Part shown: positions 1,985-54,175 of the stretch, piece by piece
How positions within the stretch are numbered: the first letter of the stretch is position 1
Layout of the letters: every line of letters begins with the position of its first letter
Source: Zoroaster sp. YZ-2022
Lineage: Eukaryota > Echinodermata > Asteroidea > Forcipulatida > Zoroasteridae
DNA: 64,000 bases
Direction: 5' to 3'
NCBI GenBank assembly: GCA_029582265.1
Contig: CM055816.1
Span: 26,266,820 to 26,330,819, forward strand
Notes under the pieces: generated by a model
Databases searched by the model: none
What the model saw: only the letters and a program-made list of their open reading frames with translations
What the model was told of the DNA's origin: nothing
Program-made: the position numbers and the translations under genes

Positions 1985-2303
1985 CTATTGGAATCAAAAT
2001 GAGGCTGTTTTAAATAGTGTGGTGCCTTGCAAACTCATAGTGATTTATGATTAGCTGTCAGGTTACCAGACAAATATGGCCTCAATGTGATGAGGATCTA
2101 TTAAAGCATGGATAAGATGACTTCCTGGCAGGCAATGATTGCTTTAAATTAAAAACAATAAAGTCATGGCAAATTGACCATGCATGTCTAGTTTACTTAC
2201 ACGAGGTCGATGTCAACTATACTATCCTCATACTGTCCATTTTGATGGAAATTGCCTATGCTCCTAGGACGATGAAATTCAAGGCCTGTGAGGTGATCAG
2301 ACA
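1985..2303 (+). repeat. Segmental duplication copy 1, left end
   Basis: From GAATCAAAATGAGGCT onward this stretch matches 53399-53805 (copy 3), and its last part matches 42970-43053 (copy 2). It is the left part of the duplicated segment that carries the FReD locus. The match stops at 2303, where the 7.3-kb transposon begins, and resumes at 9646. Confidence 0.85.
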
Positions 2304-2487
2304 CACTGTAAAAAATTGCTGTAATTTTGGCAGTATTTTACTGTATATATTTACAGTAGTGTATTGTATATTTATTTTACAGTACCTTACTGTAAATAAT
2401 TATTGCATTAACCGAAAAAATGCAAACATTATACATTGCGGTATTATACTGTAAAATGTATTACAGTATCGTACTGTAACTACGTCA
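2304..2487 (+). repeat. Left terminal and subterminal repeat of the 7.3-kb element
   Basis: The 16-bp TIR is followed by about 170 bp crowded with TACTGTA, TACAGTA and TTACTGTAAA motifs in both orientations. The same motif set fills the other end (9298-9645). Such clusters are typical of transposase-binding regions; that role is inference. Confidence 0.8.
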
Positions 2488-2874
2488 TACATTGTCGACC
2501 AATGGCAATGCTGCATACATTGACACGCCCACAATTTTCGCGCTCAAAAAAGTTGACCCAACGCCATCTTCTTTCTGCAGTTTGATGTTATGATTATGAT
2601 GTCGACAGCAGTGACGAATCCGTGAATTTATACATTTTGGTACAAGGTACTATTACTGTATTATTCTTTCTTTTTTTTCCTGTACAATCTGATAATTTAC
2701 TATTCGTTAGAACTTACTGACTGACGCTGTTGGAAAACCATCGTATTTTTAGATTTGTTTTGATATGTGTGTGTGCAGGCTAACTGTAACGTCGACCCGG
2801 TTTTGTGCTAGGCTATCCCTACATAGGCCTCTTGTTAGTAGTACTAGTTACTAGTGCCCAAGGCCAGTGGCGGA

Positions 2875-3177
2875 CCGTCAGGGGGGGTCGGGGGGGCAGC
2901 CGTCCCCCGGCCCGGACCCTCCCCAAAGAATTTTTTATTTTTTTTAATTTTTTTATTTTTTTACATTCTGGTGGAGGGGGGTGGGGGTGGGGGGGTGGGG
3001 GTGGTTGGGGGACCGAGCCCGAGCTGGAACTTACACAAATCAACCGGGCCCTTTCTTTATTTTGAGCTCCCCTGAAAACATGAAGTGTAATCATGACGGG
3101 TCTCTCGGAAATCACGTGTGGTTAGGGAATGATGCTCGCTCTGCCCCCCGGCCCGGCGGTAACTTGTTCCGCTACTG
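2875..3177. mobile_element. hAT-type MITE with 8-bp target duplication
   Basis: Flanked on both sides by CCCAAGGC (2867-2874 and 3178-3185). Ends are CAGTGGCGGA on the left and TCCGCTACTG on the right. An 8-bp duplication and CAG-type ends are diagnostic of hAT elements. The interior is G- and T-rich low-complexity sequence, and the open frames across it on both strands are spurious. It sits inside the 7.3-kb element, upstream of the zinc-finger start. Confidence 0.9.
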
Positions 3178-3295
3178 CCCAAGGCCTAACATTGTCATTG
3201 TGTAGCGGGTTTGGGTGAACGTATTAATGCTAGGCTTATATACAAGGTTAAAAGTTAATAGTTAATTAATAGTCCAATTCTATAGTGAAAATGAC

Positions 3296-4698
3296 ATGTT
3301 CCACTGTCAACTGTGTGAATATTCCAGTGAGTCGCTGAAGGCGTTTACAGTACACTTTGAATTTCATAGAAACGTTTCTAATTTTAATTTCCCTTGTGTT
3401 GTACCTACATGCACACGTACATTCCGACATTTTCTAGAGATCACAGAAAAGGGGGACTTAGGCCTACCTTGGGCACAGATACAGATCTGATATGTGAAGT
3501 GTGTGAATACAAATTTAAAGATTTTCATACTTTTTGTGCACATTTGAAACATCATATTCAGAGTGGGGTCGAAATTGTGTGTCCATTCAAACATTGTACG
3601 AACATCTTTAGAATAAAGTCATCATTTTCTTCACATTTATCTCGGAAGCACAACAATTGGTCATTTAAGCTTCTTTCTGATTCAGTGTGTAACATTACAC
3701 AACATAACAGTACAGACCCAAGTACTAGTGAAGATTCTATAGTTAATGGTAGTGACATTTCTGATGATGAAAACTTCTTAGATAAGGATTAAGACAATAT
3801 CACTTTGTACACTGTTGATCAAAAGGTTTTTCTGAAAAGCTTAGCTCAATTGTACCTGAAGTTGCAAGCAAAATTCTTACTTCCAGCATCAGTGATTCAA
3901 GATATAATTCAGGAGTTTCAAAGCATTCATGATATAGGTCAGTCCCATTTGATTTCCACATTAGAAAAGAAACTGTTGAACCTGAATGTAGGAGAAAATG
4001 AAACATCAGACATAATAGATCATGTGTTGAGAACAGATCTTTTGAAAGCATGTAATGCTGGTGTATTGCGATCAGATCAAACCCGTCAAACATACTTCAA
4101 AACTGAGTTCCATTTTGTAGAACCTATTGAAATCTATTTGGGACAAGATAGTGAATGTGGAAAACAGAGATTCTACCAGTACATTCCCATTGAAGCACTG
4201 TTCAAACAGAAATCTGTAATTGATCAGTACAAGGAAACCCATGCCCGTAAATCCAAGAAAAATATATTTGAAGATGTGTCAGATGGTAAATCTTTCTTAA
4301 ACAATGTTCTCCTTCAGGAACATCCATCTTCTATTTCACTGATTCTTTATCAAGACTCGTTTGAAGTAGTTAATCCATTAGGATCTGGGAAGAAGAAACA
4401 TAAGATACTTGCAGTATATGTTACACTTGCAGACCTTTTGCCACATAACCGATCAGGTATTGATCATATGCAGTTGGTCTTGCTCTGTAGAGAACAAGAT
4501 TACAAAGCATTTGGTGGAGAGGCTGTTTTCTCTCGCCTGATTAAAGATCTTCAGTCTATAGAAAATGATGGCATTACATCTAGAGTTCTAAGGGGCACAG
4601 TTTGCACTATTGCTGGTGATAATCTAGGTTCTCATAATATAGGTGGATTCACAGAGAATTTTAGTAAGAGCAAGTACTTCTGTCGTTATTGGATTTGA
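3296..4698 (+). pseudogene. C2H2 zinc-finger transposon protein, N-terminal half, broken
   Basis: Seen from ATG 3296: finger 1 (MFHCQLC...HFEFH, C-X2-C-X12-H-X3-H); finger 2, started (C-X4-C) but cut by a frameshift near 3430; then in another frame finger 3 (CEVC...HLKH) and finger 4 (CPFKHC...HLSRKH). An acidic linker and a TAA at 3790 follow, after which the same frame runs open to 4698. The long region reads LAQLYLKLQAKFLLPAS... and later QLVLLCREQDYKAFGG and GDNLGSHNIGGFTENF...KYFCRYW. I recognise this as a multicopy orphan protein family of aquatic animals. The GD...GGF...CR.C arrangement resembles the Asp plus zinc-knuckle part of CACTA/Plavaka-like transposases; that is inference. Family members, as I recall, continue well past the CRYC point, so the copy is internally deleted. 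Confidence 0.75.
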
Positions 4699-5055
4699 CA
4701 TATTACCTACAACGACACAGTATAAACACCAACAATCCAGTTCCATCTATCTACGAACTAAAACAAAAATGGCCATACCTCTTTCTACCAAGATTTCTTT
4801 TGGCACATTTTAACACCTTAACTGATATTCCAATAGTTGCGTGTTTATCAGATGCCCTACAAGGGAAAGGACAGCGTGTCAAGAGCTACATGGCAAATCT
4901 GGAGCAAGGAAACAAACGGGTTCAGGCTGTGTTGGCTGATATTGACTCTGCAATCCATGTACTTGATGACGCTCAATCTGTACTGGCACCAGGGGTAATC
5001 TTGCTTATGATGGCATATTTCAGAGCCCATAGACTCTCTATTTCTGCTCACTGAT
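4689..5055 (+). pseudogene. Orphan C-terminal module, exon A
   Basis: A second conserved region in a different frame from the preceding part. It reads NPVPSIYELKQKWPYLFLPR, then HFNTLTDIPI and DALQGKGQRV, and after a frame change near the end SLFLLTD at a GTAAGT donor (5056). A likely acceptor AACGACACAG ends at 4720. This matches the C-terminal region of proteins often labelled SAMD3-like or uncharacterised in fish and invertebrate genomes (recollection). It continues in phase 0 into the exon at 5717. The late frameshift shows decay. Confidence 0.65.
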
Positions 5056-5212
5056 GTAAGTAGTGTTTTATTTAAAATACATCCCAACCTACATTTTTTT
5101 GTAATTTTTGGTGAAGCCTATTCATGATTCGGGTAGCAGAGCAAACTTCTCCTGCATAAAGGCTTATAACATTGGTCTTGGTGATATGATTCCCATCTTG
5201 AGAAATTACACC

Positions 5213-5383
5213 TAGGTCCAATTTCATAGAGCTGCTAACTAAATTTCGCTAAGCAAAATGAGTTTACCAGCCAAAATGCCATATAGTGTATATTATTTTT
5301 AACTGGTTCCCGCTTATTTTGCTTAGCAACAAAATTTGTCAAGTAATATTTTCTGCTTAACACCTCTATGAAACTGGGCCCTA
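5213..5383. mobile_element. Palindromic MITE, GGGCCCAATTTCATAGAG family, copy 1
   Basis: Left end GGTCCAATTTCATAGAG and right end CTCTATGAAACTGGGCCC are inverted copies. Inner arms carry CTAAGCAAA and TTTTGCTTAG, with a CCAGCCAAA core. Two more members lie at 7316-7464 and 39916-40101. It lies in the intron between exons A and B of the transposon gene. Confidence 0.85.
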
Positions 5384-5716
5384 TACATGTAATGCTTCAT
5401 TAAGTTTGTCAGAATTTTTGGGGAATTTTGAAAAAAGGTTTTCCTATAAAGATGTTTCTTTTATAACCTTGACAACATGTGCACATGTGGAGTTTGTTTA
5501 TTTGTTATGTCATACAAGAATAATTATAATAATAATAATAATGTGTGGACTTATATAGCGCACGTATCCACCAGTGTTTCCATTGGCAATAACAATTGCA
5601 TGATCTGTGGTGTGGCATTAGATGATTTTAGAGAAATATGTGTTCCATTCAAATATATTCTACAAATAATGATGAAAAGCTATTTTTGTTTCTTTTTTGT
5701 TTTGATTTGATACTAG
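5384..5716 (+). other. Intron remainder, with short (AAT)n run
   Basis: Intron sequence with a TAATAATAATAATG run at about 5526-5542 followed by GTGTGGACTTATATAGCGCA, a phrase typical of SINE or LINE tails in marine invertebrates. No gene seen. Confidence 0.5.
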
Positions 5717-5780
5717 GTAACATCTACAGCCACAGAAGTAGAAATTAACCTGCCGGACACTTCAAGGCTAATAATGAAAG
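5717..5780 (+). pseudogene. Orphan C-terminal module, exon B
   Basis: Acceptor GATACTAG at 5716, donor GTAGTG at 5781. Frame VTSTATEVEINLPDTSRLIM then K, with the last codon split after its first base. It joins SLFLLTD of the previous exon in phase 0 and the next exon in phase 1, giving a continuous conserved sequence. This exon has no lesion. Confidence 0.75.
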
Positions 5781-6008
5781 GTAGTGTGTATATTTAACTA
5801 TTAATAGTTATTTCAGAATAAAAGTAATGTGGCTCATCAGAAAATGATGCAAGTAGGATGTAATTTGCAGGGGGATACTCGTGTTCATGACTCCCAAAAC
5901 CACCTGATTCGATCAAGGGAGATGGGGATATGCTGTTTCCCTCCCGCTCCCTTGACTTAGTCATTATTATTGCATTTTACTTATAAATCTTTTTTTTACA
6001 CTCAACAG

Positions 6009-6174
6009 GCGCATCCATTTTGACTGCAGGGGACTGTTTGCTATGTATTGAAGGTGAAGTACAATGTATTTGTACTGATTTCATATCAGGACTTGGTTGC
6101 TTGTTTGCCTCATACTACATCTTCAACTTGGAGTACCAGCCAGAAGCTGCTACCACATTGGAATTCATGCAAAG
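6009..6174 (+). pseudogene. Orphan C-terminal module, exon C
   Basis: Acceptor CTCAACAG at 6008, donor GTAATG at 6175. The frame reads GASILTAGDCLLCIEGE..., then LGCLFASYYIFNLEYQPEA and TTLEFMQR. The YYIFNLEYQPE...LEFMQR part is the signature of the family's C-terminus and is fully open here. The downstream intron starts with a (TG)n microsatellite. Together with exon B this shows the gene was spliced, so this copy is not a retrocopy. Confidence 0.8.
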
Positions 6175-6181
6175 GTAATGT

Positions 6182-6182
<1 letters not shown>

Positions 6183-6217
<35 letters not shown>

Positions 6218-6218
6218 A
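6183..6218. repeat. (TG)n microsatellite
   Basis: About 16 TG units between GTAC and TACACA, a few bases inside the intron that follows exon C. Confidence 0.95.
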
Positions 6219-6950
6219 CATACATTTGTAATTGATTGGATGAGAGCCACTGCTGACCAAAAGGTCTGAAATTAGGATCAATATTTTAGAGGATATGTGG
6301 AAATGCTGGCCTATTCCACCTTTATTTATTGTTATTTATTTCTTATTTATCCTGGAAACCGTTCAGTGTAATCACTGTGTTTTCAAGGGTGCCCACAGGT
6401 GAAGAAAGAACAGTGAAGAAATGTTCAGTTTTAGATGTGGGAGGAAAAACCTGGAAGGGAAACCCACAGAATCGGTAGGGACTGAAACCCAATTCACATA
6501 CAAGGCTCTGGTCCGGTTGAACCACAGCCAACCTGATCCCTAGATGAATAACTTTGGGGACCAGATCAAGAGCAAAAAAATTGAGTAGACATGAAAAGTT
6601 CTGAATTCAGACAAAAGTCTGAGAAATATTACCCCTGTAATTGTCTACGAGGATTGCCATGAAAATTTTCGACTGAAACGTCTAGCTATATAGCTAGGCA
6701 AAATGGACATGTGACAATCCTTATCTACAATGTTCACAAATGTGAAGATAAAAATCATACACTGACACTTGCTTTAATGTTCTTCCAGCTTACTCCAACC
6801 AAAGTTCAGACAGTTGTCTGAACATTTGGTCATTAAAAAAACCATCAAGAGTCCACAGTCAATTAAGGGACAGGGGATTGAGGAACTGCTACAATAATTG
6901 TATGTTGTAAAATAACTAACCATATTTTCACCCTTCTACACCTTCTACAG
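6219..6950 (+). other. Intron of the transposon gene
   Basis: No coding content recognised. It ends in TTCTACAG before exon D. Reading frames here on either strand match nothing I know. Confidence 0.5.
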
Positions 6951-7110
6951 ATGCTTGATGGGATAAATCCCAAAGATTGAACCAAATATACAACGAAGCT
7001 GGTCAAAGTAAAGCTCAGGCAGGGAAGTGCAGCGCAAGGGAGCAATGCAATGCCAATATTGCTACATTTGTGAGGAAGCTGGCCGACTTTGGTGGACATA
7101 ACTTCATGGC
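6951..7110 (+). pseudogene. Orphan C-terminal module, last exon, frameshifted
   Basis: After the CTACAG acceptor the spliced frame gives R-CLMG, then a one-base shift gives INPKD, then a TGA where a GGA Gly would restore GTKYTTK. A further shift gives NANIATFVRKLADF. Conserved family order is QR...GINP.GTK...RKL.DFEW (recollection). At least three lesions therefore lie in 160 bases. A possible poly(A) signal AATAAA lies near 7686. Confidence 0.65.
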
Positions 7111-7315
7111 ACAGTTCATATAATTAGCTATTAGGCATATTGATGTCGTAAATAGGAAGTCTCTACTACAACACTGATTACTGTCTGGGGTGCTGCTTTT
7201 GCAAAATAGAATAGGATAAGGTGTTTTACAAAGCCATGAGTGAAAAAGGAGCCAGCATTTTTTGGTATACAAACTCAGCTTTGGTGCATGGGCGTCGTTC
7301 ATCACTTGCCAACAT

Positions 7316-7464
7316 AGCCCAATTTCATAGAGTTCTTAAGCACAAAAATGTTCTAAGGTTAGCAGAATAGGGTTACCAGCCAAAATTCCCACTGTACTGT
7401 ATTTGAAGCAACATAGTTTGTTAAGCAATATTTTCTGCTTAACAGTTCTTTGAAATTGGGCCCA
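7316..7464. mobile_element. Palindromic MITE, GGGCCCAATTTCATAGAG family, copy 2
   Basis: Left AGCCCAATTTCATAGAG, right CTTTGAAATTGGGCCCAG. Central part TTACCAGCCAAAATTCCCAC is shared with copy 1. It is inserted just downstream of the last exon. Confidence 0.85.
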
Positions 7465-7841
7465 GAAGTGTGCATTTTGAATACATTGTGCTTAGTATTT
7501 TGTTGAAATAGCCTCTTTAGCATTACTTCATTTTATAAATATTTTGATGAATGTCGGTTGAAAGTTAAAAAGGTTCAAATTACTTTAGGGTGACAAAGTT
7601 TGGTAACTGATTTGTTAAAAGATTATCAGGAGACTGAGCTTGTGTGGTCCATGGGAGGAAACTTGGTAACCACATATTAAATGTATAATAAAAGAGATGT
7701 TTAATATTATTACGATTTGACAATTCTTACTACTTTTGATATTCAAGTAAGTTCAGAATTGTTCTGATTTACAAAAGAGACATAAAAACTAAGGACAGAA
7801 GAGGGGATTACTGGGCATTGGGTCTTCCAACCTGAAGTTAC

Positions 7842-8392
7842 AGGTACACTCTCGTCATCTTCCAACTAAACTCAAATCTTGCCATAATATAACTAGATTT
7901 AAGTCGTTGCTTAAAACTCATCTTATGTCACAATTCTTCAAAGATGATGTATATTTGTAATTGCATTGTAGATGTACATGTATCTCAGTACATATTTTTT
8001 TTCTTCTCCTAAGCTATCATTGTAGATTGTTTGTATTCATGTTTTTCTTTGTTTCCGGCATGTAGGCGCCCAGCAGGAGTGGATAATAATGCCTTCTAAA
8101 TCTTTTATTATTATTATTATGGTTGGTCAGTTGAAAATTGAAAGTTGAACGAGCTACTCAGCTCAATTTCTTAAATTTGGGCGTGCGCGATCAACCCACA
8201 AAAAGTATTGTTCACTTGCGCCATGCATACATGCAGCGCCATAAACTTGTTCATATGCATAAATATTGAGCTACACAAAGTCTGTTTTTAGTCCAGGTAT
8301 ATGGATCGATTGCGAGCTCCCAAATTTTGAAATTAAGTCAGTGGTTCATAAAAGTATTTTCAACTGACCAACTGCTTGGCGAGAGTGTACCT
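7842..8392. mobile_element. MITE with AGGTACACTCTCG ends
   Basis: Left end AGGTACACTCTCGTCA, right end GGCGAGAGTGTACCT. The inner arms GTTGGTCAGTTGAAAAT (8121) and its inverse (from 8357) pair as well. A LINE tail (7859-8121) splits the left arm, so the MITE was there first. Confidence 0.8.
7859..8121 (+). mobile_element. 3' end of a non-LTR retrotransposon
   Basis: Reads LPTKLKSCHNITRFKSLLKT, then HLMSQFFKDDVYL and a stop, like the C-terminus of jockey/CR1-type reverse-transcriptase proteins. A 3' UTR ending in (TTA)n follows at about 8100-8120. It is severely 5'-truncated, as is usual for LINE insertions. Confidence 0.65.
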
Positions 8393-8474
8393 TTAAACAT
8401 TTACTGGACACATGGAAGTACTCTTGTGGAATACAAGATATTATTATAGCATTTACCTGCATTGTTTATGACTT

Positions 8475-8679
8475 AAGTAAGACTAATTTGCGGTGACACC
8501 ATGTGAAATTCTCAATTGGTAGTAATTAGTTCAGAAAAGACTGGAGGTATAACGGTGTGCTCTGATGGTCGTGAAGCGTGAGGTTGTACCTCCAGTTCTT
8601 TCAGAAACAATACTACTCAGTGAAATTTCAGTGTCACCGCGAGTTCTTACTCCCTCATGGAAAGCTATAAGTCTTACTT
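8475..8679. mobile_element. Foldback MITE with direct-repeat flanks
   Basis: AAGTAAGACT at the left and AGTCTTACTT at the right. Inner arms pair too (GCGGTGACAC with GTGTCACCGC; GGAGGTA with TACCTCC). The 13-mer TTGTTTATGACTT flanks both sides and probably is or contains the target duplication. Confidence 0.8.
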
Positions 8680-8912
8680 GTTTATGACTTAATATAAACA
8701 GATTGGTGTTGTCTTTGTGACAAGGTTTGATTTACTGAAATATTGTACAGGTATACTAAATTTATCAGTGGGTGTTATATTTCTTGTTCACAAAAGCACA
8801 ACCTCACTTTGTGGTTTTGGGTGGATGGGGAAGGACTGCTAGTTGCAAGATGGCTAATATTAAACACTTTTTAGTAAAAGTGATGTATAGAAACCTTTAT
8901 TATAGTGCTAAT

Positions 8913-9160
8913 TGGGTCTGTCACACTAATGGGGCCAGAATGTGACATTTAATAAAAACAGGATGTGAAAGAAAAATGATATTGTTTGGTAAGCATCATT
9001 CATTCATTATTGGCTTCAAACAGGCCACCATAAGCACGAGTATAAGCTGATAAATTTAAAAAGAAAAAAAGAAAAAATTATTCCTTTATTGTATTCTCCC
9101 TGTCAAAGTAAAGATATAACAATTCATATGGCCCCATTAGTGTGGACAGAGTCAGACCCA
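8913..9160. mobile_element. MITE with TGGGTCTG ends
   Basis: Left end TGGGTCTGTCACACTAATGG, right end CCATTAGTGTGGACAGAGTC followed by AGACCCA. The pairing differs by a short insertion in the right arm. It is nested in the 3' part of the 7.3-kb element. Confidence 0.8.
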
Positions 9161-9297
9161 AGTATGTTAACCAGTTTTCATAAATGTTTTATTAGCTTTT
9201 AAACTTTCATAATTTAGAAAATGTTTTCAGTTTTATGCAATAAAACATTTTGAAATGTTGAACAGTTTTTATTTGTGCAATTTTTTAAAATTTAAAT

Positions 9298-9645
9298 ATT
9301 ATTACTATAATTAGTTCATTAAATTACTGTAAATTATTTGTTATTACTGTAATTTAATTTACAGTAACTAATATTTTCTGCTAAATGTTTACAGTACTTT
9401 ACTGCATGCATTTACAGTATCTGTGCTCTTCCTGTTAAAAATACAGTAATATACTGTATTTACTGCGATACAGTATATTGTTTGTTGCTGTAAGATTTAG
9501 AGTAAGTTACTGGCAACCAGCTGCCGGTAACTTACTGTAATGTTACAGTAATTTATTTACAGTTATTAATGTAAAATTTTACAATGAGTGCACTGGCAAC
9601 TCAGCTGCCAGTAACCTGCTGTAATTCTGAGCAATTTTTACAGTG
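9298..9645 (-). repeat. Right terminal and subterminal repeat of the 7.3-kb element
   Basis: Dense TACTGTA/TACAGTA motifs, including TACAGTAATATACTGTA, plus two copies of an imperfect palindrome around CAACTCAGCTGCCAGTAAC. The tract ends with TTTTTACAGTG, mirroring the left end at 2304. Confidence 0.8.
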
Positions 9646-9810
9646 CATTGTTAAATTAAAACAATTGTTAAATTAAAACACCACAGGATTTACATATGAA
9701 TGTGGCAGGACTCTGTTCCTAAACCTAAGGTTATTGACATTGGGGTTAGAATGGTCGCCAGCTTTATTACTTTGGGGACTATGTCAGAATAACTGATATG
9801 ATGGGTCTTA
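9646..9810 (+). repeat. Segmental duplication copy 1, piece between two transposons
   Basis: Matches 43050-43205 and 53805-53965. A short CATTGTTAAATTAAAACA-like stretch is doubled at 9646-9680. It ends TGGGTCTTA, where the Tigger-like element is inserted. Confidence 0.85.
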
Positions 9811-12325: not shown

Positions 12326-12671
12326 ATATAATCTTGAAAACTTTTGCAAAAAAGTCAGGTGAAACTGGCCAAGAATGCCTCAGATTGCACCACAGAGCAT
12401 CCAAGTCCAAAATTTTCCGGGGTATAAGCAGACCCTGGACCTAACGCCGTAAGAGGCTTCGCGCTCGCATTTAATAATATGCTTTCCCCACAATAATAAT
12501 AATAACTAAAGATTTGTAGCGTGCACATATCTACCCTGCTGGGCGCATAGAGCGCGAAAACAAAGGAAAAAAAAACATGATTACAAACAATATACAATTA
12601 GCATAGGGAAAAAAAAATGTTCGTGTTGGGTTATTGACCCCGTCTAAAAATTCCTGGATCCGCGCCTGTTA

Positions 12672-21480: not shown

Positions 21481-21486
21481 TGCCCA

Positions 21487-22511
21487 TGTCTGTTTCACGC
21501 ATTTTCATGCTGGATGCTTTGAGAGGATTGAGGTTGTTATGCCAGTAACGCCACACAATGCCTTTGGCACTCTGAGGCTGCCCATCTGGGTAATAAGGAC
21601 CATTTAAGTCAGAGCGGAGACAGCTATTATACCACCAGGCTCCTTCATGGTCTTGTGCACAATTGAATCCGTTACTCGCATCATTGTCATTATCCTTTGT
21701 TGAGAAGTGCATTCCTTGTGATGCCCAAAGAGGTGACCAGCAGTGCTGCTCACATCGTAGTCGCCATAATTCAGTGTGTACTTCTCACCAGTGATTTGGA
21801 AATCCGTGTATTTCATGAATGCCGTATCGTCACTCCAATCTGTGAGATCTATGCGGAGGTCCCATGTCCCGTGTGATTTATCAGATGTCAGACTCACAAG
21901 TTATCATTCCCTAACCAATGCTCCCCGCTTAGACAACCGAAGCCAGAACTTATACTCACTCCAGTCACGATAAAGTCAAATTTGCCGTCCTCTCTGCGCT
22001 GAAACACAATCCATCCGCCGCCGTCAATGTCCATTTCTAATAGACTTTGAGACCATCGCTGAATCGTCTGGGTAGATCTTGTAGACACTACTTGTGCATT
22101 AACCTGCCTCCATTAGCCCTTTACAACTTCTGTAGCGATCAATCCCAGGCAATAAGAGAGGTGTATTTTCATTTTCATCGAAGTACACACTCTCTTGATC
22201 TTCAACGAATGATTCAGGATACTCAGCCCTTGTGGAGTTATTTAACTCACACAGTTTATTGCATTTGTAGAAGTTAAATGACTTACAGTTCTTATCCATG
22301 TTACAGTCTCGTCCACACATGACGTAATAGAATTTTGATTTTCTTGGCATACGTAAAGTTTTTGAGTGCTCGGTTATCTGCGGGGAGATATTCGTTTGCA
22401 AGCCCACCACATTGACTTCCCAAACTTATCGCTTGTGATATCAGTGGTATTATAAACACGAACATCATGTTTAAATGGAGTACGCACATCAAGAGTACTT
22501 GCTGCGTCATC
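21487..22511 (-). pseudogene. Fibrinogen-related (FReD) pseudogene, copy 1
   Basis: Counterpart of the intact gene at 51913-52959. Read from ATG 22511: signal peptide and first part of the PAN/apple-like domain are open (MTQQVLLMCVLHLNMMFVFI...), then a frameshift near FTYAKK. The next piece ends at a TAA where copy 2 has a Tyr codon (RSCKGLMEAG-stop). Two small deletions near 22038-22060, a frameshift near 21900 and another near 21720 follow. The final TAA is also lost (MKMRETDM runs on into GTPINLTGN). With at least five lesions the copy cannot make a full protein. Secreted innate-immune lectins are the usual role of the family. Confidence 0.9.
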
Positions 22512-23545
22512 TTCGATGTATTGTTTGTATATGGGTGAAAACGTTTCAATGTAAATCCAATTAAATAAGTAGAACTATCAGTTTTTATTCAATCAAGTAT
22601 TTCGGTATCATCGGTCGACCAACTGTTCGATTGAAACACGACTATACTGCACACGGCGTAATGTAGAAATGTAACACAGCTTCGACCGATAAGTGTTTAT
22701 ATTGAATGTTTGTGATCCAAAGTTGCATGCGTAAAAGCACTGATTGGTCAAAGTGAAGTCACTGCTGAATGGTGATTTACCATGTATCACCTGATTGGTT
22801 GACTGAAAGTTGATTAGGCTCAGCTTTATCTGTTTTTTGGTTTCCTCAAAAAGATAAAATTATTCACTAATAGACAGTCCCAACCTGAATTGTTTTAATG
22901 TTTCGAGGAAACAAAATACAAATTTTGCCTTTATGAATTAATGCCTATATCTATGAATTTGTTTAGCACATAAAATGTTTGAATGGTGATTTTACTGAAA
23001 TATTAATGAAATAAATTAAATAGCCTGGTCAACATGGCCTCCCCACTGCAGCTAACACAATTCAACAACAGTATCAGTCTATCGCCTAATTTGCATATCC
23101 AATATTTTTGTATATTGAAACCGTCCCCTCACAGGGCGAGAGACCAGTGGGTACGAGGTATACATAAACTACAGGAACATCCTGGGGACGATGTTGTCGT
23201 TCATCATACTGAACACTATTAAGCCCAACTTTCACATACGTGACCAATTCAAAACTTGATAATTACTATGGCATTATTCGTTTTGTGTTTATTTAAGTTT
23301 ATTACTTGGTGACCCCCAAAAATAGCAATTCTAATTTATTTCTCTTTAGAGTGCCAGGAATGTTCAATGATTGTAATTATGTATTAGCTGAAGACAGTGT
23401 GAATCCAAGCTGTAGGGTAAATGAAAGGGGGAAACACGGTACAATCTGATAACTTGCCGCTGGCTACACCGATCTGCCAACTAATGCACGACATGAATCA
23501 CGAATAAACCCACTAATTGTGCCTTTAAAGAGGATCTGATGATAT

Positions 23546-42550: not shown

Positions 42551-44030
42551 TTTATAAATATGAAAGTAATTTCCATTATGAAAAGACAATCACTTGAGAT
42601 TGGTCCTTTTATGAGACGCATTACCAAGCATTTTCACTGGATCCTTAATTGACTCAACAGTAAAAGATAACGCCCTGTATTTGTGACCACACCCACAATA
42701 TGTCAACTTAAAATAATAATCGCATGTACTCCATTTTTGGACAGCTGTATAAGACAAACAAAACAAACAAAATTGTGGCCAATTTGACTCAGAGCTGCTT
42801 AGGTGAAGAATGAGTTATTACACACCTAGCATTTGTTGTCCCCACCCATATGCAATCTACGGCCAATTTCATATAATATTGCCCCTGATGTCTAAATCAA
42901 AGATAATCCCATCTGTTCCCATATGAGGCACGTCAAAAGGTGGGGATTAGAACTTGATTTTGTAATGGAAAAGTTCTTTGAGGGAAAACTGTCTACTCCT
43001 ACATATGCTCCTACGAGGACGAAATTCAAGGCATATGAAGTGATCAGACATTTTTAATTAGATCGGTAAAACACCACAAGATTTACATATGTATGTGTCA
43101 AGTCTCTGTTCCTAAAACTAAGGTTATTGACATTGGGGTTAAGTATGGTCGCCAGCTTGATTATTTTAAGGACTATGTCAGAATAACTGATATGATGGGC
43201 CTTATCACTAACCATTCTCATATTCTACAGGATCTCTTGTCAACCGAATCCTTCCATCCTATAGGTGTAATAGACCTTTAATTAATAAACCGCAGCCATC
43301 TTTGCTTTCCTGTACACAAGTCTATGAGAATCAGAATGTACAACTGAACCAGTAGACAGGTTCCTTACAATGTGATGTAGATAAGGAACGTGACTGTGGT
43401 AGACGTGTGTGAGGAACAAACAATGCCCAATGGGTAATTATTATTCCATTGGTGTAAAACGATAATGTAATACAGGGGTGGATCCCGGGTGTCGATAAAG
43501 GGGCGGGGTTACACTGCCAAACAAGGGGAAAAACAAATAACGTATGATAAATTGATGTGCAAAGGGTGCAATTCATCATTTTCATCGTCATGCGAGTAGA
43601 TTTATACGCTATTACGTGCGTTCTTTCTCCCACACTGAATCCAATTTCTAACTGATGAAACAATAACGACGATAGAGGGCGGGCTATATACCTGTCAGAG
43701 ACATCGTATTTTGTCTGGGGATAATATCGGTTTTCCCGTCCAATGTCAAAACCTTTTTGTAAATTTTCGTTCAAGAACATTCTAATTCACGCCGTTTTAG
43801 TGACCCAACCAATCCAGGGTTTCTTTTTGTATACTGTTGCGTTTAATTTAATTTAATTGATTTCAAAACAATTATTATTTTGTTCATATCATACTGCATT
43901 TAGTTGACTTCAACTATGTCATACCGAAATTTAATGTTTCGCATCTTTTCGTGATTGATGCATTCAAATTAACAATCATCGATGCGCAAAGCATTTTGTA
44001 GAAGTTTGTTATTTTCGCTTTCGTTAATGG

Positions 44031-51912: not shown

Positions 51913-52959
51913 TTACATGTCTGTTTCACGCATTTTCATACTGGATGCTTTGAGAGGATTGTAGTTGTTATGCCAGTGACGCCACGTAATGCCTTTGTCA
52001 CCCTGCCACTGCCCATCTGGGTAATAACGACCATTTAAGTGAGAATGGCGACAGCTATTAAACCACCAGGCTCCTTCATAGTATTGTGCACAATTCCCGC
52101 TATACACATCATTGTCACTATCCTTTGTTGAGAAGTGCATTCCCTTGTGATGATACCCAAGAGAGTCACCAGCAGTGCTGCTCACATCGTAGTCACCATA
52201 ATTCAGTGTGTACTTCTCTCCAGTGATTTGGAAATCCGTGTATTTCGCGAATGCCGTATCGTCAATCCAATCTGTGAGATCTATGCGGAGGTCCCATGTC
52301 CCGTGTGATTTATCGGAGGTCAGACTCACCAAGTTATCATTGCCTAACCAATGCTCCCCGCTTAGATCACCGAAGCCAGACTTATACTCACTCCAGTCAC
52401 GATAAAAGTTAATATTACCGTCCTCTCTGCGCTGAAACACAATCCATCCGCCACCGTCAATGTCCATTTCACAATAGACTTTGAGATCGTCGCTGAATCC
52501 GTCTGGGTAGATCTTGTAGACACCACTTGTGCGGTAACCTGCCTCCATTAGCCCTTTACAACTTCTGTAGCGAGCAAAGGAGATATCACTATCAGGCAAT
52601 GAGAAGAGAGGTGTGTCTTCATTTTCATCGAAGTACACACTTTCTTGATCTTCAACGAATGATTCAGGATACTCAGCCCTTGTGGAGTTATTTAACTCAC
52701 ACAGTTTATTGCATTTATAGAAGTTAAATGACTTACAGTTCTTATCCATGTTACAGTCTCGTCCGCACATGACGTAATAGGGTACAGTTTTCTTGGCATA
52801 CGTGAAGTTTTTGAGTGCTCGGTTATCTGCGGGGAGATATTCGTTTGCAAGCCCACCACATTGACTTCCCAAGCTTACCGTTTGTGATATCAGTGGTATT
52901 ATAAACACGAACATCATTTTGAAATGGAGTACGCACATCCTGAGTACTTGCTGCGTCAT
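51913..52959 (-). CDS. Secreted PAN/apple-like plus fibrinogen-related (FReD) protein
   Basis: Single-exon frame of 348 aa from ATG 52959 (an in-frame TTG upstream is not needed). Residues 13-30 form a hydrophobic signal segment. Residues 34-112 hold a Cys-rich apple/PAN-like module (C34, C65, C69, C75, C83, C87). Residues 132-344 are a fibrinogen C-terminal domain: SCKGLMEAGYRTSGVYKI, CEMDIDGGGWIVFQRRED, EHWLGND, Ca-site KDSDND (D280, D282, D284), Cys pair C290-C303, and YYPDGQ ... KASSMKMRE at the end. Possible N-glycosylation at NFT (51) and NST (91). FReD proteins are secreted lectin-like recognition molecules (ficolin, tachylectin, angiopoietin types). The TAA at 51913 overlaps a GTAAGT, so a further exon is possible. 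The copy at 21487-22511 is dead. Confidence 0.92.
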   Translation of the reverse strand: MTQQVLRMCVLHFKMMFVFIIPLISQTVSLGSQCGGLANEYLPADNRALKNFTYAKKTVPYYVMCGRDCNMDKNCKSFNFYKCNKLCELNNSTRAEYPESFVEDQESVYFDENEDTPLFSLPDSDISFARYRSCKGLMEAGYRTSGVYKIYPDGFSDDLKVYCEMDIDGGGWIVFQRREDGNINFYRDWSEYKSGFGDLSGEHWLGNDNLVSLTSDKSHGTWDLRIDLTDWIDDTAFAKYTDFQITGEKYTLNYGDYDVSSTAGDSLGYHHKGMHFSTKDSDNDVYSGNCAQYYEGAWWFNSCRHSHLNGRYYPDGQWQGDKGITWRHWHNNYNPLKASSMKMRETDM

Positions 52960-53290
52960 CTTCAATGTATTGTTTGTATATGGGTGAAAACGTTTCAAGG
53001 TAAATCCAGTTAAATAAGTACAACTATCCGTTTTTATTCAATCAAGGATTTCGTTATCATCGGTCGACCAACTGTTTGATTGAAACACGACTATACTGCA
53101 CACGGCGCAATGTAGAAATGAAACACAACATCGACCGATGAGTGTTTATATTGAATGTTTGCGATCCAAAGGATTGCATGCGTAAAGCACTGATTGGTCA
53201 AAGTGAAGTCACTGATGAAAGGTGATTTACATGATTGTATCACCTGATTGGTTGACAGAAACTTGATTAGGTATTTTAATTGAAACATAA
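52960..53290 (-). promoter_or_regulatory. Probable FReD upstream region
   Basis: The 330 bp upstream of the ATG are conserved with 22512-22810 upstream of the pseudogene. On the minus strand a CAATATAAAC TATA-like motif lies near 53145-53155, about 190 bp before the ATG. Promoter identity is inference from position and conservation, and since both copies come from one duplication, conservation alone is weak evidence. Confidence 0.35.
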
Positions 53291-53394: not shown

Positions 53395-54175
53395 ATATGA
53401 ATCAAAATGAGGCTCTTGCCTTAAATAGTGTGGTGCCTTGCAAACTCATTTATGATTAGCTGTCAGGTTACCAGACAAATATGGCCTCAATGTGACGAGG
53501 ATCTGTTAAAGCATGGATAAGACAACTTCCTGGCAAGCAATGATTGTACACAAGGACATGTACACAAGAATATTATTTATATTACAAATACTTTCTTAGT
53601 AATTAAGTCTTTAGTTCATGTTTCAATTAAAAACAAAGTCAAGGCAAATTTATCCTACATCTAGTTTACTTGCACGAGATTAATGTCAACTAAATTGTCC
53701 TCATATTATCCATTTTAATGTAATGGAAAAGTTCTTTGGGGGAAATTGCCTTGCTCCTACCTATGCTCCTAGGAGGACGAAATTCAAGGCCTGTGAGGTG
53801 ATCAGACATTGTTAAATTAGATCGGTAAAACACCACAACATTTACATATGTGTGTGTCAGGTCTCTGTTCCTACAACTAAGGTTATTGACATTGGGGTTA
53901 AGTATGGTCGCCAGCTTGATTATTTTAAGTACTATGTCAGAATAACTGATATGATGGGTCTTATCACCATTCTCAAATTCAAGAAAATCTCTTGTCAACC
54001 AAATCCTTCCATCCTATAGGTGTAACAGACCTTTAATTTAATAAACCGCAGCCATCTTTGCTTTCATGTACATAAGTCTATGACAATCAGAATGAGGCAC
54101 ATGTACAACTGAACAAGTAGACATGTTTCTTGCAATGTGATGAATTCAATCATAACGATATCTCTACTGCCCGTA
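53395..54175 (+). repeat. Segmental duplication copy 3, partial
   Basis: Matches 1990-2303, then 9646-9810, then 12672-12880, without the copy 1 transposons, so it is an empty-site reference. It is interrupted by the MITE arm at 53549-53628 and by a CACTGTAAAA element at 54176. Confidence 0.88.
53549..53628 (-). repeat. MITE arm, right of inverted pair
   Basis: ACACAAGGACATGTACACAA ... GTTCATGTTTCAATT. Copy 1 reads straight from GATTG to AATTAAAAAC here, so the arm was inserted after duplication. Confidence 0.85.

Follow-up and report, generated by a model that had tools for sequence, protein, structure and literature searches.

A transposon insertion with defined borders

We examined a 64-kb window of the genome of the starfish Zoroaster sp. 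YZ-2022 (contig CM055816.1), the window being the whole stretch of DNA that was analysed. Positions 2304-9645 are occupied by a terminal inverted repeat (TIR) transposon insertion that carries parts of 2 genes on the plus strand, which we refer to as gene 1 and gene 2. The 5' TIR, CACTGTAAAAAATTGC, was located at 2304-2319 on the plus strand, and the 3' TIR, CACTGTAAAAATTGC, at 9631-9645 on the minus strand, where it is one A shorter and is read on the plus strand as the reverse complement. The inverted repeat measures 16 and 15 bp with a 1-bp indel, and the element ends are CACTG..CAGTG. A copy of the dinucleotide CA is present on each side of the element, at 2302-2303 and 9646-9647, in the context ...GATCAGA-CA(element)CA-TTGTTAAATTA.

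The host sequence of the insertion is a repeat that is present elsewhere in the window without the element. We joined 200 bp from each flank, removed one CA, and aligned the product within the window, which identified 2 paralogous empty sites on the plus strand. The first, at 53621-53965, spans the junction near 53808 (76.9% over 359 columns, with 47 gaps), and the second, at 43004-43206, spans the junction near 43050 (84% over 213). The sequence is GATCAGACATTGTTAAATTA in the former and GATCAGACATTTTTAATTA in the latter, with a single CA in each. Because the joined flanks lacking one CA matched both empty sites, the target-site duplication is the 2-bp sequence CA; no other register was seen that fits equally well.

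A 5' subterminal array of 7 TACTGTA/TACAGTA motifs in both orientations was located at 2339-2478, and a 3' subterminal array of 10 motifs at 9325-9550. Under a first-order Markov model fitted to each 350-bp stretch, 0.14 copies were expected in the first 350 bp of the element and 0.38 in the last 350 bp, and the observed numbers were reached in 0 of 2000 simulations at either end. The element contains 20 of the 26 copies in the window, and no 350-bp tile outside the 2 ends (50-bp steps) held at least 3 copies.

Remnants of two genes joined at a deletion seam

Gene 1, the transposase gene, starts at 3296-3433 (+) with finger 1 and the first part of finger 2 of a C2H2 zinc finger array. This segment was aligned by tblastn in frame +2 with the homologous proteins P0014 (63%) and P0001 (43%), both over 46 residues, and is followed by a frameshift. 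The remainder of finger 2, fingers 3 and 4, and a linker are encoded at 3433-3789 (+), which closes at an in-frame TAA codon at 3790-3792. The core, containing LILYQDSFEVVNPLGS and GDNLGSH, extends over 3793-4689 (+) and has 249 homologs, with 46% to 51% identity in tblastn. The first and second Asp are encoded at 4354-4356 (within LILYQDSFEVVNPLGS) and 4618-4620 (within GDNLGSH), and the C(2)C motif begins with the Cys at 4681-4683. The homology breaks off at 4689 inside the FCRYC motif, and the window copy keeps only the 2 Asp residues and the first Cys of the catalytic and zinc-binding motif set. No family was matched in a Pfam scan of this core, Transposase_21 included.

The tblastn alignments to gene 1 end and those to gene 2 begin at a deletion seam at 4690-4693, out of frame and with no intron. 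On the gene 1 side, P0003 and 3 long relatives (P0005, P0023, and P0032) all ended at 4689, while P0001 continued through stops to 4743 and P0014 ended short of the seam. On the gene 2 side, P0122, P0129, P0134, and P0178 started at 4686 or 4689, and P0121 at 4668. About 390 to 410 residues of gene 1, including the catalytic Glu, and about 300 residues of gene 2 are absent at the seam, which corresponds to the second half of gene 1 and the first half of gene 2.

The first surviving exon of gene 2 (the WPYLF region, 4693-5055, +) was similar to P0121 (55% over 120 residues) and P0122 (57% over 113 residues) and is followed by a GT donor at 5056. An exon at 5717-5780 (+; VTSTATEVEINLPDTSRLIMK), bordered by AG and GT with limits set by eye, corresponds to the end of a weak tblastn match to P0121 at 5438-5785 (28% over 127, E = 1e-4). 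The exon at 6009-6174 (+; ASILTAGDCLLCIEG...EFMQR), also bordered by AG and GT, was similar to P0121 (67% over 58 residues) and P0129 (44% over 59 residues). The frame is disturbed in the last exon (6951-7123, +; ATFVRKLAD), for which a likeness to the C-terminus of P0121 was noted by eye, with no match in tblastn. None of 11 query proteins matched the window outside the element at E ≤ 0.01 in tblastn, and nothing was identified when the window was scanned for Rfam families and tRNAs.

As judged from its sequence, the copy cannot make transposase and is dead, because the second half of gene 1 is gone, in addition to the TAA codon and the frameshifts. The initial annotation had proposed a TIR transposon with a 2-bp CA duplication and subterminal zones rich in TACTGTA/TACAGTA, in agreement with the ends, the joined-flank matches to 2 empty sites, and the motif counts given above. 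The zinc finger gene that it placed inside the element does contain 4 C2H2 fingers but is not intact, since finger 2 is split by the frameshift and the frame is closed by the TAA codon. Furthermore, the spliced C-terminal exons ascribed to this gene belong to a second gene beginning at the seam, and the element holds parts of 2 genes joined via an internal deletion instead of a single gene.

Gene 1 relatives and their predicted fold

To identify relatives of gene 1, we used the protein encoded by 3388-4698 (436 residues, with the stop as X) as the query, considering candidates of up to 1.75 times the query length. The search yielded 249 matches at E ≤ 1e-3 among 3176 candidates; the details given here are from the 120 listed matches, and the searches for gene 1 and gene 2 together provided 240 listed proteins. 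The listed matches with a named source were mostly from fish, and nearly all were labelled "uncharacterized" or "hypothetical", as the initial annotation had anticipated for the conserved core. Named relatives outside the fish were from the soft corals Dendronephthya and Paramuricea, the sea spider Pycnogonum, the sea urchin Lytechinus, and the starfish Patiria. It was also noted that the names of some fish entries of the gene 1 and gene 2 families are misleading (P0037, P0154, P0175, and P0231, named RecBCD subunit RecC, interferon-induced 44, prolyl-tRNA synthetase-associated, and a kinase). At least 4 finger-like patterns were present within the first 200 residues of 43 of the 120 listed relatives and none in 56, and several of the proteins without fingers visibly begin inside or past them.

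Alignment A5 comprised 11 relatives selected as long and poor in fingers, and in all 11 the two Asp, the two Cys, the His residues, and the Glu were invariant. Gene 1 is identified by these conserved residues as a DDE transposase. Six motifs, [YQ]D[AS]FE, GDNLGS, FCR[YF]C, GHD[LIV]FEG, KHH[YF]xxHY, and RFESKH, were present in this order in 15 of the 240 listed proteins, most of the others being incomplete. In these 15 proteins, the first and second Asp are separated by 82 to 91 residues, the distances from the second Asp to the Cys residues are 21 and 24, those from the first and last His to the Glu are 25 and 20, and that from the second Asp to the Glu is 251 to 255. The corresponding residues in RAG1 are D600, D708, and E962, with C727, C730, H937, and H942 as zinc ligands, and the distances are 108 between the Asp residues, 19 and 22 to the Cys residues, 25 and 20 from the His residues to the Glu, and 254 from the second Asp to the Glu.

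The best fold matches of the predicted structure of P0023, a relative of gene 1, were RAG1 and RAGL, and about 460 residues of catalytic fold in the model were aligned with RAG1, BbRAGL, and HzTransib (PDB 6dbx, 6b40, and 6pqx) at about 9% to 12% identity. The Pfam family Transposase_21 (tnp2) was matched by 23 of 60 gene 1 relatives at E ≤ 1. When the full profile of alignment A2 was compared with PDB sequences, the best 60 of 134 matches were confined to the finger region (profile positions 2-152). BAH was absent from a Pfam scan of 3 gene 1 C-terminal tails, an NCBIfam scan of 3 proteins gave nothing above the cut-off, and no match at E ≤ 0.001 was obtained with a viral fold library. Taken together, the relatives and the predicted fold point to a full gene 1 encoding 4 C2H2 fingers, a RAG1-fold DDE core with a C(2)C/H(3-4)H zinc site, and a BAH-like C-terminal domain.

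A distant relative of gene 1, split by a frame change, was found at 2158-4468 in a 4.5-kb contig (L001), the sole match among the genome contigs searched, from an "Aquifex" metagenome-assembled genome, with motifs in the same order as in gene 1 (DEF..NPLGS, GDNLGS, CRFC, AHDLFEG, KLHYMSHY, and FEGKH). Judging by the KLHY sequence in this contig, H(3)H is the more likely form of the conserved His pair. No TACTGTA/TACAGTA motifs or clear ends were seen in L001, which hence has no bearing on the terminus. The contig is most likely animal DNA misbinned into the Aquifex genome, that is, a contamination. None of the viral contigs searched with the gene 1 and gene 2 profiles matched, and the 16-bp end pattern matched 9 IMG/VR contigs, which were presumed to be chance matches.

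A putative partner encoded by gene 2

The gene 2 profile matched 124 of the 240 listed proteins, 10 of which also matched gene 1. In these joined models, from ten fish species, the gene 1 segment came first in 9 of 10, which is the order observed in the window; in the joined model P0126 it sits within the gene 2 match. The gene 2 part started at profile positions 1-12 in 8 of the 10 models. The gene 2 relatives in fish are uncharacterised, with the exception of 2 listed entries named SAMD3(-like). The structural model of gene 2 consisted mainly of helices; the matches listed included no kelch propeller, PDB folds gave no match at E ≤ 0.001, and the sequence matched only designed helical proteins in PDB (best E = 0.0017). 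Gene 2, located downstream of gene 1 on the same strand, putatively encodes a SAM-like partner protein.

Placement among known transposons

The CMCT (CACTA/CMC-Transib-RAG1) clade contains EnSpm/CACTA, Mirage, Chapaev, Transib, Plavaka, ESTA, and Lanisha along with RAG1, and is defined by a DDE transposase in which the second D and the E enclose C(2)C and H(3-4)H, mostly 5'-CA..TG-3' ends, and a target duplication of 2 to 5 bp (PMC12730594). The gene 1 relatives have the DDE triad with C(2)C/H(3-4)H in this position, the ends of the element are CA..TG in the form CACTG..CAGTG, and its duplication, CA, as estimated from one insertion and 2 empty sites, is within this range. The segment at 2304-9645 is therefore very probably a CMCT cut-and-paste transposon with two genes, present as a decayed, non-autonomous copy with an internal deletion. 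This explanation is based on the ends, the duplication, the empty sites, the motif arrays, the seam, the homology of both halves, the motif conservation, and the predicted fold. The CMCT-type transposon is an already known kind of element, from whose description (PMC12730594) the element and its relatives appear to differ in the C2H2 finger array, the predicted BAH-like tail, and the putative SAM-like partner. This domain set and partner were found in no paper searched in the open-access literature, in which there was also no paper on BAH with transposase and CACTA, or on SAMD3 as transposon-derived.

EnSpm/CACTA is a Repbase superfamily (PMC4455052, PMC5753468), and the plant CACTA/En-Spm elements have CACTA ends, a 3-bp duplication, and a transposase plus ORF2, a second open reading frame (PMC4158355). 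The element is similar to these in having a transposase plus a second protein, but has CACTG instead of CACTA ends and a 2-bp instead of a 3-bp duplication. In the plant elements, TNPA binds subterminal repeats and internally deleted copies exist; we know of no C2H2 array or BAH-like tail in them. The SmTRC1/TRC elements, described in 2006 as animal and fungal CACTA relatives with Transposase_21 and CCC ends, have a 2-bp duplication deduced from empty paralogous repeats, and SmTRC1 has several alternatively spliced products and relatives reported in sea urchin and zebrafish (PMC1636069). The 2-bp duplication is shared, whereas our element has CAC instead of CCC at its ends and the term "zinc finger" has no occurrences in the available text of PMC1636069, the comparison with TRC being one by description.

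The ends of Plavaka are TGT..ACA or CATCA..TGATG (PMC12730594), neither of which is present here. Plavaka/CACTA had been aptly suggested for comparison. The suggestion of KDZ was unsupported as far as Zisupton is concerned, with 8-bp duplications (PMC12730594) against 2 bp in the element; Zisupton, Harbinger, and hAT were rejected on the basis of duplication length. Transib and RAGL have 5-bp duplications, the protostome RAGL consensus starts with CACTW, the RAG1L and RAG2L genes are convergent, and RAG1 and RAG1L have N-terminal zinc fingers (PMC7204232). Our element resembles RAG1, BbRAGL, and HzTransib in the catalytic fold, as modeled for a relative, and in a zinc-site spacing near the RAG1 values given above, and shares with RAG1/RAGL a second gene and N-terminal zinc fingers. 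It differs from them in the length of the duplication, which is 2 and not 5 bp, and apparently in the partner, which is a kelch protein, RAG2 or RAG2L, in RAG and RAGL.

Weight of the evidence and alternative explanations

Several observations weigh against the placement as a two-gene CMCT transposon. The duplication length and the ends rest on one event, because a single insertion of this element family was seen, and the placement is founded on motifs, ends, duplication length, and predicted fold. Four or more fingers and FESKH were found on one protein in only 3 of the 240 listed proteins, and 4 fingers, FESKH, and a tail of more than 140 residues together in none. The gene 1 architecture is thus a composite of relatives, which slightly lowers our confidence, since no listed protein covers the whole proposed gene. 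The second Asp was replaced in 2 of 98 gene 1 entries with xNLGS (Tyr in P0065, Gly in P0048), and P0014, P0024, P0041, P0066, and P0119 (from 2 corals, sea spider, starfish, and sea urchin) stop or diverge before the Glu. The fold model is that of a homolog, which shares 51% identity with the window across 364 residues, and not of the window copy. When a profile of the finger-poor gene 1 core was compared with PDB sequences, no match was obtained at E ≤ 10, so the case for kinship with RAG1 is built on the fold and the spacing of the motifs. The best Transposase_21 match (P0061, E = 2.5e-5), covering the stretch between the first and second Asp, scored 24.0 bits against a Pfam cut-off of 28.6. 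Finally, the joined fish models may have arisen through faulty gene prediction, and 5 of the 10 were themselves included in the alignment from which the gene 2 profile was made.

The RAG1 and RAGL fold matches, the gene pair, and the similarity of the CACTG ends to the CACTW of protostome RAGL (PMC7204232) speak for an element of the Transib/RAGL branch proper rather than one on the CACTA side. We consider this placement unlikely, given the 2-bp duplication, the location of gene 2 on the same strand and not convergent as for RAG1L/RAG2L (PMC7204232), the mostly helical gene 2 model with no kelch propeller among the matches listed, and the tnp2 matches in gene 1 relatives. Furthermore, no CACTA-family structure was among the fold matches listed, such that RAG1 may win by default; to our knowledge, no such structure exists. 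Gene 2 could instead be a host gene or part of another element captured by chance, with gene 1 alone in the autonomous element. CACTA-type elements do pick up passengers, and most gene 2 homologs are separate models, only 10 of the 124 profile matches also matching gene 1. Such a capture is nevertheless rather improbable in view of the order shared by the window and 9 of the 10 joined models, which come from ten fish species, the start of gene 2 at profile positions 1-12 in 8 of them, and the transposase plus ORF2 of plant CACTA (PMC4158355).

The 2 long coding stretches on one strand, the GT-AG borders around the later exons, and the joining of both parts in some fish gene models could also be taken to reflect one real spliced gene with fingers, core, and C-terminal exons, a domesticated host gene that lies between transposon ends by chance. 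This is very unlikely, as the seam has no intron, breaks gene 1 in the middle of a motif, and shifts the frame, downstream of a TAA codon and a frameshift, and gene 1 has lost the half that carries the catalytic Glu; moreover, the relatives of gene 1 and gene 2 occur as separate proteins, and the 2 empty sites testify to an insertion. As for an inverted repeat that arose by chance in a region full of repeats, the window would be expected to contain 1.6 chance matches to the 16-mer when up to 3 mismatches are allowed, but such an artefact is refuted by the empty sites, in which the exact ends are the borders of the insertion, and is at odds with the perfect duplication and the motif arrays beside the ends. 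We consider it practically ruled out.

Other features of the window

Other mobile sequences are nested in the transposon. A hAT-like element at 2865-3177, with the ends CAGTGGCGGA...TCCGCTACTG, is flanked by an 8-bp direct repeat, CCCAAGGC, at 2857-2864 and 3178-3185, and 2 related short inverted-repeat elements with CCAATTTCATAGAG... ends are located at 5215-5380 and 7317-7461. Toward the 3' end of the transposon, a segment of about 130 bp (7997-8126) has an inverted copy, 76%, at 12487-12617. The right flank contains a short tandem duplication at 9648-9685 that adjoins the insertion and is absent from both empty sites, and a tandem array with units of about 58 bp is located to the left of the insertion at 1312-1659. 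The window also contains 2 copies of a duplicated host gene on the minus strand. The copy at 51913-53037, upstream of which the empty site at 53808 is located, encodes PAN and fibrinogen C-terminal domains (E = 1.7e-67) within one open reading frame, and the domain matches of the copy at about 21485-22588 are split over 2 frames.

Proposed mechanism and implications

By analogy with TNPA of Spm, the fingers, the partner protein, or both may bind the TACTGTA/TACAGTA arrays near the ends, where the RAG1-type DDE core would cut at CACTG/CAGTG. Insertion would then occur by a 2-bp staggered join, with duplication of CA in the present case. The partner and the BAH-like tail may serve to regulate synapsis, repression, or chromatin targeting, and the window copy could have been mobilised in trans by an intact copy before it decayed. 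More broadly, we tentatively suggest, as a possibility to which we attach no great confidence, an animal-wide lineage that combines a RAG1-fold transposase having its own finger array and a chromatin-reading BAH domain with a SAM-domain partner encoded by the same element, a two-protein recombinase organised like RAG1-RAG2 but with other accessory parts, and in which the partner family would be the source of vertebrate SAMD3-like genes.

The analysis provides a transposon identity for 2 large sets of "uncharacterized" (and a few SAMD3-like) proteins in fish, coral, and echinoderm genomes, by which the number of false host-gene annotations could be reduced. Its importance would be less if Repbase already contains such elements under EnSpm. 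The results point to a lineage with the catalytic fold and zinc site of RAG1 but with other accessory domains and another partner protein, which would be useful for asking how the two-protein recombinases of the RAG type originated.

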